Assembly (NCBI RefSeq): GCF_021398735.1
Contig: NZ_CP090349.1
Location: 4,421,001-4,485,000, forward strand
Reading direction: 5' to 3'
DNA length: 64,000 nt
Origin: Methylobacterium oryzae
Lineage (GTDB): Bacteria; Pseudomonadota; Alphaproteobacteria; Rhizobiales; Beijerinckiaceae
Each line of letters starts with the position of its first letter. The stretch's first letter is position 1. The notes beneath the pieces were generated by a model. It was not told where the DNA came from. It was given only the letters and a program-made list of their open reading frames with translations, and did not search any database. Shown here in pieces: positions 2,403 through 6,874 of the stretch. The position numbers and the translations under genes are program-made.

Positions 2403-4919
2403 TCACGCGGCCTTCGCGGCTCCGGTCATCGTCATGAGGCCGGCGATGACCCGGTAGGTCTCGGTCCAGGCTTCCCGGACCTCCGGCGTGAAGTCCGGGC
2501 CGAGCCCCTGCTCCAGGGTCCAGAGCAGTGCCGCCCCGACCGCCTCGAAATGCGCCTGCAGCGCGCCGTAGCCGACGTGCCGGTCCCCGAGATCGCGCAC
2601 GGCGGCGACGAGCGCCTCCGGCTTGTCGAGGTTGGCCACCGCCAGTGCCAGCATGGCGACGAGTTTGCGCTTCTGCGCGGTCATGTCGTCCGGGAAGAGC
2701 GACCGGACCTGCGGCGCGATGTCGAACAGGCGTCCGTAGAACAGCTCTGCCGCGGTGTCGCCGAGCGCCTGCACCGTCGCGAAGCTGCGCTGCACGATCG
2801 CGACCTGGGCGGCGGAGACCGCGTAGGACACGCGAACGCTCGCCAGGAACCGTTCGACCTCGGCGGTCAGACGGTCCGACTGGTCCGACAGGGCGGAGGC
2901 CGCCGCGAGAACCTGGCTCGCGGCCAGGCCGGTGCCCTCGGCCGCCTGCGCGACGCCGGTCATGGTTGTGGTGACCTCGCCTGTGCCGGTGGCCGCCTGC
3001 CCGACGTTGCGGACGATCTCCTGGGTCGCCGCACCCTGTTCCTCGACAGCCGCCGCGATCGTGGTCGCCGCCCCGTTGATCTCGCGGATCCGCGCGGTGA
3101 TCGCCGCGATGGCCTCCACCGCCTGCCCGGTGGACGCCTGCACCTGCGCGATCTGACCGGAGATCTCGTCGGTGGCCTTGGCGGTCTGCGCGGCGAGGGC
3201 CTTCACCTCGGAAGCCACCACCGCGAAGCCGCGGCCGGCTGCGCCCGCGCGGGCCGCCTCGATGGTGGCGTTGAGCGCCAGCAGGTTGGTCTGCTCGGCG
3301 ATCGACGAGATCAGCCCCACGACGGCACCGATCTGGTCCACGGCGCTGCTCAGGTCCTGGACGCGCGCGGCGGTCCGGTCGGCCTCGGCCGCGGCCCTCT
3401 GCGCGAGATCCGCCGATCCGTCGGCCTGCCGCCCGATCTCCTGGACGGAGGTGCCGAGCTCCTCCGCGGCCGCCGCCACGGTGTTGACGTTGCTCGAGGC
3501 CCGCTCGGCGGCGGCCGCGACCGCCGTCGACTGCCCGGCCGTCTGGGTGGCCGTCGCGGTCATCGTCTGCGCCGTGACCTGCAGGGCGTTGGCCGAGGAC
3601 GCGACCGAGCCGATCATGCCTCCGACGGCCTCCTCGAACCGTTGCGCCATCTGGCGCAGGCTGTCCCGGCGCTGGTCGTCGGCGTCCAGCCGCGCCCGCT
3701 CGGCCCCGGCCTCGAGGTCGCGCGTGCGGATCAGATTGTCCCGGAAGGCCTGCACGGCCACCATGATCGGCGCGAACTCGTTCCGGTACGCTTGCACCGG
3801 GACGGCGACGGCGGTGTCGCCCCCCGTCAGCGCGCGCATCGCGGTGGCGATGATCCGGAGGGGGCGCAGCACGCCCCCGAACAGAGCCATGAGGCCCAGC
3901 CCGACGAGCAGCAGGACGGCCAGCAGCGCCGCGGCACTGTGCAGGAGAACGCGGTCCGCCTCCGCGGCGAGGCTCTCGGCCCGCGCCACCATCTCGGCGA
4001 GGGCGGCATTGGCGAGATCGACGATCGTCATCTGCTCGACGCTGTTTCGCTTACGGAGATCTTGGAACGTGATGGGGGACGCGCGATGCTGGCTCAGGGC
4101 GTTGAAGATCGCGCGCGCCGCCTCCGCCGCCTCGCCCTCGAAATTGCTGCGCTTGGCCTTCTCGAACGCGGACCGCACGGCGTCCGAGCTCTGGGCGGCG
4201 GCCTCGCTGGTGCTCGACCACGCCGACTGGACCCGCGCCCGCTCCTCGGCCGCCGCCACGGTCTCGGGCAGCGACCACGACGTTCCCGCCGCCAGCGAGG
4301 TCTGCACGCGCAGGGCGACGTTCCCGATCGCGACACGGGTCGCCCAGGCGGACCGCTTGAGGACGAGGTAGTGCTGCAGGACGGCGTCGGAGCGCGGAAT
4401 AGCCGAATCCACGGCGTCCGTGGTCGCCGTCAGCGCGTCGAGAAGTTCCTGAAAGGCCGTCAGCACGGCGGGCAGCAGCGCCGGGTCCCGCTTCGGCTTC
4501 GGTACGCGCAGGGCTTCATCGATCCGGGGGCGGAGCAGGTTCACGGCGTCCTGCGCCGCGTTGAGCCTCGCCATCGTCGCCGTCACGGAGGGCAGATCCC
4601 GGTCCCGCAGCAGGTCCTGAACGCTCGCGAAGCCCGCGACCATCGCGTCCCGGTTCGTCGCGTAGGCCTTCAGGCTCTCCGGGTCGGCGGACGCATCCCC
4701 GCCCAGGGCGAGCGCTGCCCCCCGCTCGAGGCGTGTCGGCAGGATCGTCCCGAGCAGCTGGCGACTCGCGCGGGTCAGCGTGACCGCGTCCCGGGCCTGT
4801 CGCGCCTGAAGACGCGCGTCGAACAGAGCATTCCCCGCGTAGGCCAGTAACATCATCGCCATGGCGAGTATCGTCGTGCACATGACGACTCGAATCGAGA
4901 CGTAGCCAAGCCATCTCAT
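2403..4919 (-). CDS. Methyl-accepting chemotaxis protein with C-terminal globin domain
   Basis: 838 aa. The order is: TM1 (about 8-28), a periplasmic helical sensor region (about 30-325), TM2 (about 327-350), HAMP (about 350-402), and an MCP signalling coiled coil (about 430-690) with the conserved tip at 535-579 ([20 protein letters not shown], then [13 protein letters not shown]). Residues about 700-834 form a globin domain of flavohaemoglobin/bacterial single-domain type. Haem-pocket residues seem intact: Tyr728 (B10, in LFYGRLF), Phe742 (CD1), Gln749 (E7) and proximal His781 (F8, in DRHVGYG). Known globin-coupled chemoreceptors such as HemAT place the globin at the N-terminus and are soluble; here it is at the C-terminus of a membrane receptor. 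Oxygen, NO or redox sensing is inferred. The gene is monocistronic, with no chemotaxis genes beside it. Confidence 0.93.
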
Positions 4920-5320: not shown

Positions 5321-6874
5321 TCAGGGCGCGTCGTCCGCGAGCTCGACCCGCCCGTCCAGGCCGATGATGCGCCCGAGGCCGCGGACGCGGTTCAGCAGGC
5401 GGTCCCCGTTCAGGGCCTCCCAGTCCCGCGGCAGGCGCAGCACCACCCGGCCCTCCTCGACGGTGAGCGGCGCCCGTCCGAGGGCGCCGTCCATGCCGGC
5501 CGAGATCGGGAAGGCGATCCGGAGCAGGGCGCCCAGGAGGCGGGCGCGCTCGAACAGGCGCGGACCGGCCACGCTCCGGAGCATCGGGTTCGCCTTCTCG
5601 GGGGCCAAGCCTGTGTGCCTCAGGGACACCGCCAGGGCGAGATAGGCCCGGCCCGGATGATCCACGCCGACGAACGCGGCATTCTGGATCACCGCGATGC
5701 TCTGCTCACCGCGGTAATCCGGATGCGCCCGCCAGCCGACGTCGGACAGCAGGCAGCCGGCGTGCCGCAGCCGGCGCTCGTCGGTGGTCTCGTGGCCGTC
5801 CAGGGTCGCGACGAACCGGTCCGTCCAGGTGATCAACTCCTCGCCGTGGCGGGGCGAGCGCGCGCGCAGAACGTTGAATTCCGACGCCGAGGCCAGCAGC
5901 GGATCGATCAGACGGGTGTCGCGGTCGAGCTGCTCGAACAGCAGGCCCTCGCGCACGCCCGATGCCGAGATCGCCACCTCGCGGGGGCGCCCGACCCGGA
6001 TGATCTCCTCGAGGACGACGGCGCCGTAGGCGAGGAGCGGGCGCCGCGCCTCGGAGATCGCGTCGACGTCCTGCAGCAGCGCCACGTCGGTCTGCTCGAC
6101 GACCTGCAGGAAGCTGAGTTCGTCTGTGGGCTCCACCGTGTAGCCGTGCATCACGTGGACGGGGTAGCCGCGGGCCGCCTGATGGAGCCGCGCGATCGCC
6201 CGCCACGTGCCGCCGACCGCGTAGAAGGTCCGCCCGCGCAGGGTCTCGAGCTGCGGGGCGGCCTTGCGCATGTACTCGCGGACGATCTTGGCGGCCTTCT
6301 TGACCGAGCCGCCGGACAGGTCCTGCAGGGCGAGGCCGCCGAGGGGCATGGTCACCCCCTGTCCGACGACCGCCCCGCGGACGTCTACGAGTTCGAGCGA
6401 GCCGCCGCCCATGTCGCCCACGACGCCGTTCGGCGCGTGGAATCCCGAGACCACGCCGAGGGCCGACAGCTCGGCCTCGCGCCGTCCGGAGAGGAGCTGG
6501 ATCTCCTGGCCACAGGCCGCCTCGGCGGCGCGGAGAAAGTCGGGACCGTTCTCGGCGTCCCGCGCCGCCGCCGTGGCGAGGACGTAGACCTGCCTGACGC
6601 GCATCGTCTGGCACAGCACCCGGAACCGCGCCAGGGCGGCGAGTGCGCGCGTCACCGCCTCCTCGTTCAGGCGGCCGGTCGTCAGGACGTTGCGGCCCAG
6701 GCCGCAGAGCACCTTCTCATTGTAGAGCGGCGTCGGCGCCCGGGTCAGTCCGTCGTACGCGACGAGGCGGACCGAGTTGGAGCCGATGTCGATAATCGCC
6801 ACAGGATGGCGCGCGGTGCTGTCGATCGCCTCCGCGTCGTGCGCGAGGGTGAGGTTGGCAAGAGGGCTGCCCAA
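5321..6874 (-). CDS. ppx: Exopolyphosphatase, Ppx/GppA family
   Basis: 517 aa. Ppx hydrolyses terminal phosphates of inorganic polyphosphate (the related GppA acts on pppGpp). The N-terminal ASKHA-fold ATPase-like half shows both phosphate-binding motifs, IIDIGSNSVRLVAYD (about residue 27) and GDMGGGSLELVDV (about residue 153), with ATAAARDAENG between them. The C-terminal half carries the HD-like helical region of long Ppx proteins (CLLSDVGWRAHPDYRGEQ). The start used is TTG at 6874 with GAAGGA about 10 bases upstream; no in-frame ATG lies before the first conserved motif. It follows ppk by 81 bases in the same direction, so synthesis and degradation of polyphosphate are encoded together. 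Confidence 0.93.
   Translation of the reverse strand: MGSPLANLTLAHDAEAIDSTARHPVAIIDIGSNSVRLVAYDGLTRAPTPLYNEKVLCGLGRNVLTTGRLNEEAVTRALAALARFRVLCQTMRVRQVYVLATAAARDAENGPDFLRAAEAACGQEIQLLSGRREAELSALGVVSGFHAPNGVVGDMGGGSLELVDVRGAVVGQGVTMPLGGLALQDLSGGSVKKAAKIVREYMRKAAPQLETLRGRTFYAVGGTWRAIARLHQAARGYPVHVMHGYTVEPTDELSFLQVVEQTDVALLQDVDAISEARRPLLAYGAVVLEEIIRVGRPREVAISASGVREGLLFEQLDRDTRLIDPLLASASEFNVLRARSPRHGEELITWTDRFVATLDGHETTDERRLRHAGCLLSDVGWRAHPDYRGEQSIAVIQNAAFVGVDHPGRAYLALAVSLRHTGLAPEKANPMLRSVAGPRLFERARLLGALLRIAFPISAGMDGALGRAPLTVEEGRVVLRLPRDWEALNGDRLLNRVRGLGRIIGLDGRVELADDAP

Follow-up and report, generated by a model that had tools for sequence, protein, structure and literature searches.

A transmembrane chemoreceptor of Methylobacterium with a C-terminal F-type globin

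Introduction

Globin sensing domains are described as N-terminal. Globin-coupled sensors (GCS) carry an N-terminal sensor globin (PMC13401364), and a further source describes other proteins as carrying fused globins at their N-termini (PMC4476040). At the other end of the chain, DcrH of Desulfovibrio vulgaris is an MCP with a C-terminal haemerythrin, according to reviews (PMC9388753, PMC13401364). Here we analyze a Methylobacterium oryzae gene for a full transmembrane receptor that ends in a C-terminal globin. The gene lies in a window of 64,000 nucleotides, the whole stretch of DNA analyzed (contig NZ_CP090349.1, positions 4,421,001 to 4,485,000). The literature that we searched, with partial coverage and few subscription papers, held no report of a receptor with a C-terminal globin.

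Results

A single frame encodes a transmembrane chemoreceptor and a globin

The fusion gene, which runs from an ATG start to a TGA stop, encodes two TM segments, HAMP, a signalling hairpin and a globin (Table 1). Pfam profiles matched MCPsignal (PF00015) at residues 499-661 (E 1.1e-28) and Globin (PF00042) at residues 727-827 (64.2 bits against a cut-off of 22, E 2e-17), bearing out an initial annotation that had read the gene as a transmembrane MCP with a C-terminal globin. NCBIfam matches for the middle of the protein are chemoreceptor families, and the hairpin tip with its EAARAG motif is conserved in our receptor alignment. Residues 34-320 matched no Pfam family at E<=1. The protein terminates at residue 838, with no reductase domain attached. 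The same genome contains three CheA-type (PF02895) genes.

Table 1. Features of the fusion gene, in window coordinates
Feature	Position	Strand	Basis or conservation
MCP-globin fusion gene	2403..4919	-	838 aa; single ORF; 11 complete homologues
TM segment 1, hydrophobic, residues 4-33	4821..4910	-	Kyte-Doolittle scan
Putative periplasmic ligand-binding region, residues 34-320	3960..4820	-	flanked by both TM segments
TM segment 2, hydrophobic, residues 321-357	3849..3959	-	Kyte-Doolittle scan
HAMP, residues 350-396	3732..3872	-	Pfam PF00672, 27.7 bits, cut-off 25
MCP signalling hairpin, residues 430-697, tip at about residue 560	2829..3632	-	Pfam PF00015; EAARAG at 554
Joint, residues 691-702	2814..2849	-	receptor end and old globin start
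F-type globin domain, residues 703-832	2424..2813	-	Pfam PF00042; PDB globins; AlphaFold2
Tyr728 (B10)	2736..2738	-	12/12 fused, 45/45 other globins
Phe742 (CD1)	2694..2696	-	12/12 fused, 45/45 other globins
Gln749 (E7)	2673..2675	-	12/12 fused, 45/45 other globins
Lys752 (E10)	2664..2666	-	12/12 fused, 44/45 other globins
His781 (F8), predicted proximal haem ligand	2577..2579	-	12/12 fused, 44/45 other globins
C-terminal Ala-Ala	2406..2411	-	12/12 fused receptors, 52/52 receptors without globin

A globin profile search over 111 Methylobacterium genomes identified the fusion in 12 of them, with carriers that include M. fujisawaense, M. longum, and Methylobacterium spp. UNC378MF, E-065 and NEAU K. 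Eleven genomes hold a complete gene, and in the twelfth (G055) the gene is cut at a contig start. Since one frame runs through all 11 complete genes, each from a different genome, the frameshift that the initial annotation had named as a possible origin of the tail is ruled out, as is an assembly error; the 12 carriers likewise rule out an oddity limited to the window. Chance or sequencing error is thus excluded. In G055, a receptor end (L191) and a globin end (L192) could not be assigned to a single gene because they lie on different contigs with no overlap. Within the globin, dN is lower than dS in all six pairs compared (dN 0.04-0.19, dS 0.18-0.69).

The globin belongs to the F type

The last 144 residues match 53 distinct PDB sequences at E <= 0.001 (best 2.6e-25). 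The closest are two Methylacidiphilum globins, HGbRL (3wfw, E 2.6e-25) and HGbI (3s1i, E 4.8e-22), followed by neuroglobin and Vitreoscilla haemoglobin. The NCBIfam flavohaemoprotein model matches residues 702-830 (E 2e-18) with a score far under its own cut-off, and Protoglobin (PF11563) gave no match in the 838-aa protein at E<=1. By these sequence matches, we assign the globin to the flavohaemoglobin or single-domain (F) type, and not to the sensor-globin type of HemAT. A structure prediction, which the initial annotation had proposed for the tail, agrees with a globin: AlphaFold2 models residues 688-838 as an all-helical domain (mean pLDDT 88.9, pTM 0.83), with confidence above 90 over most of the globin's length. 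That annotation had further called the protein a "reversed globin-coupled sensor". The order holds, as the globin follows the MCP domain and is thus placed opposite to that of HemAT. The notion of a rearranged GCS does not, since the globin is F-type and its nearest relatives are stand-alone Methylobacterium globins; a rearranged HemAT-type GCS is ruled out by the absence of a PF11563 match.

We counted the haem pocket residues in one alignment of the 12 fused globins and 45 other globins (Table 1). The four residues that the initial annotation had named (Tyr728, Phe742, Gln749 and His781) were identified correctly, and each is found in all 12 fused globins. In PMC4476040, Lys52(E10) of HGbRL is described as the sixth haem ligand, giving Lys-His hexacoordination, and HGbI (TyrB10, GlnE7), which has the closest characterized pocket, is described as having a very high O2 affinity. 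At least 25 of the 111 Methylobacterium genomes contain stand-alone globin relatives that share this pocket but lack a signalling partner; since the pocket residues recur in them, the pocket cannot separate sensing from scavenging. At five Methylobacterium loci, a stand-alone globin (L039, L043, L048, L055 and L063) is followed after about 2-3 kb by an MCP gene.

We also surveyed the HemAT-type globin in the genus. Protoglobin (PF11563) matches occur in 32 of 110 Methylobacterium genomes, with none of the 12 fused genomes among them; over the cut-off, the counts are 0/12 fused versus 25/98 others (p 0.065, with kinship ignored; for six of the 12 fused genomes, membership in the searched set is assumed). 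At this p value, we do not claim mutual exclusion of HemAT-type protoglobin and the fusion.

Placement of the globin and the receptor-globin joint

The cytoplasmic part of an MCP folds back on itself as an antiparallel hairpin, and its C-terminus ends on the HAMP side. The globin starts at residue 703, about 140 residues past the hairpin tip and back along the second helix. Because the hairpin is antiparallel, the globin is predicted to lie roughly level with residue 420, just under HAMP, in a membrane-proximal position; the initial annotation had set it at the membrane-distal end of the coiled coil, which this topology does not support. In the AlphaFold2 model, a helix spans residues 689-700, breaks at 701-702, and gives way to globin helix A from 703, leaving a link of about two non-helical residues. 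Model confidence is low at the joint itself (pLDDT blocks 62 and 74).

Alignment of the joint with receptors that lack a globin and with stand-alone globins revealed correspondences on both sides. Tyr699, present in all 12 fused receptors, falls where receptors without a globin have their stop codon. Residue 701, which aligns with the globin's initiator Met, is V in five, I in four, M in two and L in one of the fused proteins, and its equivalent is Met in all 19 stand-alone globins. In G055, the joint reads Val-Arg-Ala-Ala-Tyr-Ala-Met, in which the customary ending of the receptors is followed by Tyr in place of the stop and then by the globin start Met. A GCG codon precedes the old Met position in 8 of the 12 fused genes, and GCG forms the three bases preceding the start in 12 of 19 stand-alone globin genes. 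The two genomes that keep the Met at the joint, G007 and G055, form the deepest branch of the fused globin clade. Judged from these sequences, the joint resembles the product of read-through out of a receptor gene into an adjacent globin gene. A single stop-to-Tyr change is a possible fusion step, disfavoured by the receptors' own stops: 47 of 52 are TGA, two changes away from Tyr codons.

The receptors also share their C-terminal residues. All 52 Methylobacterium receptors without a globin that we examined end in -AA (51 RAA, 1 QAA), as do all 11 complete fused receptors and the G055 piece, this time after the globin. The same end is found in 10 of 20 Methylobacterium stand-alone globins and in 41 of 76 stand-alone relatives overall (Fisher p 0.004-0.005, kinship ignored). 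According to a review (PMC8973945), ClpXP of Caulobacter recognizes C-terminal residues that are non-polar and has the chemoreceptor McpA among the proteins it degrades. By analogy, the Ala-Ala retained after the globin may be a transplanted degron, a suggestion that we offer as a lead only.

Related loci with and without the globin

The fusion gene has ppx (5321-6874) on one side and an acetamidase-like gene (888-2390) on the other; past the latter comes a PTA_PTB-domain gene (11-862). The locus follows the order ppk-ppx-X-acetamidase-PTA_PTB, in which X is a variable receptor slot. We examined the ppx-acetamidase site in 32 genomes. A fused receptor occupies the slot in eight (the window and seven others), and an orthologous receptor without globin, ending in VRAA or IRAA, occupies it in seven (G021, G031, G044, G052, G007, G145 and G140). 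Sixteen genomes have no receptor in the fetched stretch, either with ppx adjoining acetamidase (nine) or without acetamidase (seven); in G055, the receptor start lies at the contig end. The G140 receptor without globin (L203) is split over two frames. Away from the ppx site, fused genes are found in G007 (L186), G017 (L188) and G026 (L189), of which the latter two share a third locus with 85% identity over 8.4 kb.

The fused-gene DNA of G007 closely matches that of G031, where the receptor has no globin (95.9% identity over 5.5 kb and 95.1% over 3.2 kb), and G021 and G052 show the same arrangement with a receptor that likewise has no globin. Between flank and receptor, about 535 nt in G007 stand in place of 39 nt in G031. 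Within the receptor, identity between G007 and G031 is 93.4% over residues 5-404 (1124/1203 nt) and 79.1% over residues 405-696 (693/876 nt). Across the same border, the three receptors without globin change pairwise from 84.3 to 89.5, 85.5 to 87.8, and 83.8 to 89.8%, and G007 compared with the other two receptors without globin shows a smaller drop (83.0 to 78.2% and 84.6 to 79.5%). The p value for the breakpoint, 4e-22, is post hoc because the border was picked from earlier identity bins and then tested. Our reading is that in G007 the resident receptor apparently kept its sensor, TM segments and HAMP and received the hairpin and globin from a different receptor by recombination after HAMP.

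Trees of the globin and receptor parts

In a globin tree of 83 rows, all 12 fused globins group in a single clade (98/85), which is recovered in 98% of 200 bootstrap trees and adjoins the Methylobacterium stand-alone globins. In a receptor-part tree of 63 rows, the fused state needs three changes, with three forced by starred branches, and the fused globins are carried on three receptor lineages. A signalling-domain tree of 64 rows also does not unite the fused receptors (one clade in 0% of bootstraps), with one change as the least forced; here L186 departs from L229, L227 and L228, and these three remain one clade (97/94). A smaller globin tree of 36 rows leaves the fused rows without resolution among the Methylobacterium stand-alones, and its bootstrap is not settled. 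What fits these trees best is that a stand-alone Methylobacterium globin fused once to a receptor C-terminus and that sensors were then exchanged.

Occurrence outside Methylobacterium

Among the best 80 of 140 relatives (one contig scan), we found five fused receptors, all from Methylobacterium, and no TM MCP-globin outside the genus. Overlapping samples of 397 genomes of the order, 385 of the class and 398 of the phylum also yielded none outside the genus; these samples are partial, with at most 10 candidates scored per genome, for the order among the matches listed. The phylogenetic range, for which the initial annotation had suggested a search, thus stands at 12 of 111 Methylobacterium genomes, with none found in the partial samples beyond.

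We inspected 12 long open frames, then 11 more. The latter 11 consist of a globin followed by about 240-280 residues with no MCP match, which fits flavohaemoglobins. Of the initial 12, two (L178 and L179) are mini-MCP-globins, L169, L170, L176, L177 and L180 have no MCP match, and L171 has an N-terminal globin followed by a low-complexity stretch. The remaining frames, L172 (3863-6712), L173 (3349-6129), L174 (434-2803) and L175 (3339-6110), come from four genomes of another class and encode an N-terminal F-type globin and then an MCP, a HemAT-like order with a different globin family. The globin match of L175 is weak (E 4.6e-6), and L172, the sole member of this set scanned with Pfam, contains three PAS stretches.

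The mini-MCPs (L179, 1349-2926; L178, 1799-3484; L252, L253 and L254) carry one or two C-terminal F-type globins and come from genomes G277, G429, G357, G1198 and G681, all outside Methylobacterium. They were found in four of 30 genomes of one family in the same order, and in G681 (one of two genomes). Like the fusion, they place the globin or globins after an MCP hairpin. Unlike the fusion, they have no TM segment that we could see, a hairpin match of only about 90 residues (the tip), and long Pro/Glu-rich linkers. In the 36-row tree, their globins separate from the Methylobacterium ones (80/98) on a branch that is not starred. A C-terminal globin also occurs on a HAMP-adenylate cyclase of Nostoc sp. 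FACHB-973 (L104, 1931-4429), which has a dCache_1 match under cut-off.

Discussion

A proposed model of a two-input chemoreceptor

We consider it somewhat more likely than not that the protein is a two-input chemoreceptor, in which a periplasmic sensor is combined with a gas-sensing globin, that the fusion arose once, and that the hairpin-globin unit spread by recombination after HAMP. In this model, the N-terminal periplasmic domain would sense some ligand, and the C-terminal F-type globin would bind haem and sense a cytosolic diatomic gas, for which O2 at low concentration is the likeliest candidate and NO the main alternative. The globin, attached by a very short link, would follow the end of the second signalling helix near HAMP and the methylation bundle. 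Ligation of the haem could then alter packing at the HAMP/methylation end and shift CheA control, and this shift would set the gain or bias of the periplasmic response. As to origin, a stand-alone Methylobacterium globin would have fused once to a receptor C-terminus, and later recombination after HAMP would have placed the resulting hairpin-globin unit beneath other sensors. Tentatively, and with somewhat less confidence than an even balance would give, we suggest that this unit is a portable gas-sensing control cassette, swapped under periplasmic sensors just after HAMP. If so, it would enable ordinary chemoreceptors to balance an external cue against O2 or NO in the cytosol.

Alternative explanations

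The globin might instead, in line with the output or gas-scavenging role that the initial annotation also considered, handle gas at the array, as an NO dioxygenase, an O2 store, or protection against peroxide or NO, without signalling through the hairpin. Its TyrB10/GlnE7 F-type pocket is like that of flavohaemoglobins, and the same-pocket stand-alone relatives have no signalling partner. We nevertheless regard such a role as unlikely: the reductase domain is absent, the genome already encodes a separate flavohaemoglobin-like frame of 437 aa, the modelled link of about two non-helical residues is no tether, and the exchange in G007 moved hairpin and globin together. It is quite improbable, in our estimate, that the haem senses redox state or an exogenous ligand, and not O2 level, through hexacoordination by Lys752 (E10). 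This idea draws on analogy with HGbRL, the best PDB match, which shows Lys-His hexacoordination (PMC4476040), and on the presence of Lys E10 in 12/12 fused globins. The same lysine is found in 44/45 other globins, however, which makes it a family mark and not a receptor-specific feature, and HGbRL, whose globin is N-terminal, forms a site-swapped dimer.

The patchy distribution of the tail (12 of 111 genomes) and the existence of same-locus orthologues without it could point to a structural or localizing module with no haem function, or to a neutral passenger. Both are very improbable given that the haem residues are intact in all 12 fused globins and that dN falls below dS in every pair. A further alternative concerns origin, namely that independent fusions placed related globins on three receptor lineages. 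The receptor-part tree, with its three lineages, is compatible with this, as is the failure of the small globin tree to set the fused clade apart. Yet the larger globin tree groups the fused globins in one clade (98/85), Tyr699 is found at all 12 joints, and the G007 breakpoint lies after HAMP and not at the joint, so that we hold independent fusions to be decidedly unlikely. A single fusion followed by exchange of sensors remains our preferred reading.

The fusion would show one route by which chemoreceptors acquire a second input. The bacteria concerned are related, plant-associated and amenable to laboratory work, and at one shared chromosomal location they have matched receptors that carry or lack the tail.

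Comparison with known systems

HemAT and other globin-coupled sensors resemble the fusion in combining a globin with an MCP signalling domain. They differ in chain order, with an N-terminal globin as opposed to one at residues 727-827 of 838, after the MCP domain; in globin family, PF11563 as opposed to F-type PF00042; and, for HemAT, in being soluble where the fusion receptor has two TM segments. From MCP topology, the N-terminal globin of HemAT meets the hairpin at its membrane-proximal end, as the globin of the fusion would. Since the two globins would share a hairpin end, the fusion offers a test of spatial position versus chain order in the control of CheA by gas.

F-type globins of the flavohaemoglobin or single-domain kind stand alone or are followed by a reductase, and the fusion globin instead follows an MCP. 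HGbRL and HGbI of Methylacidiphilum infernorum share TyrB10 and GlnE7 with it; the HGbRL globin is N-terminal, before Roadblock/LC7, and HGbI is stand-alone, as described in PMC4476040, in contrast to the C-terminal globin here. Azospirillum Tlp1 and Aer have a C-terminal cytosolic PilZ domain (PMC13401364), a regulatory tail like the one proposed for the fusion, but the ligand of PilZ is c-di-GMP and not a gas.

The closest analogue of the fusion is DcrH, with a different family of sensing domain. As described in PMC9388753 and PMC13401364, DcrH has a periplasmic domain between TM helices, then HAMP, MCP and an O2-binding domain, the same arrangement that we predict here. The DcrH domain is a non-haem diiron haemerythrin, not a globin, and its host is an anaerobe. 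DcrH poses the question of how an O2-binding domain at the C-terminus acts on the kinase, which can be tested in Methylobacterium because same-site orthologues exist with and without the tail.
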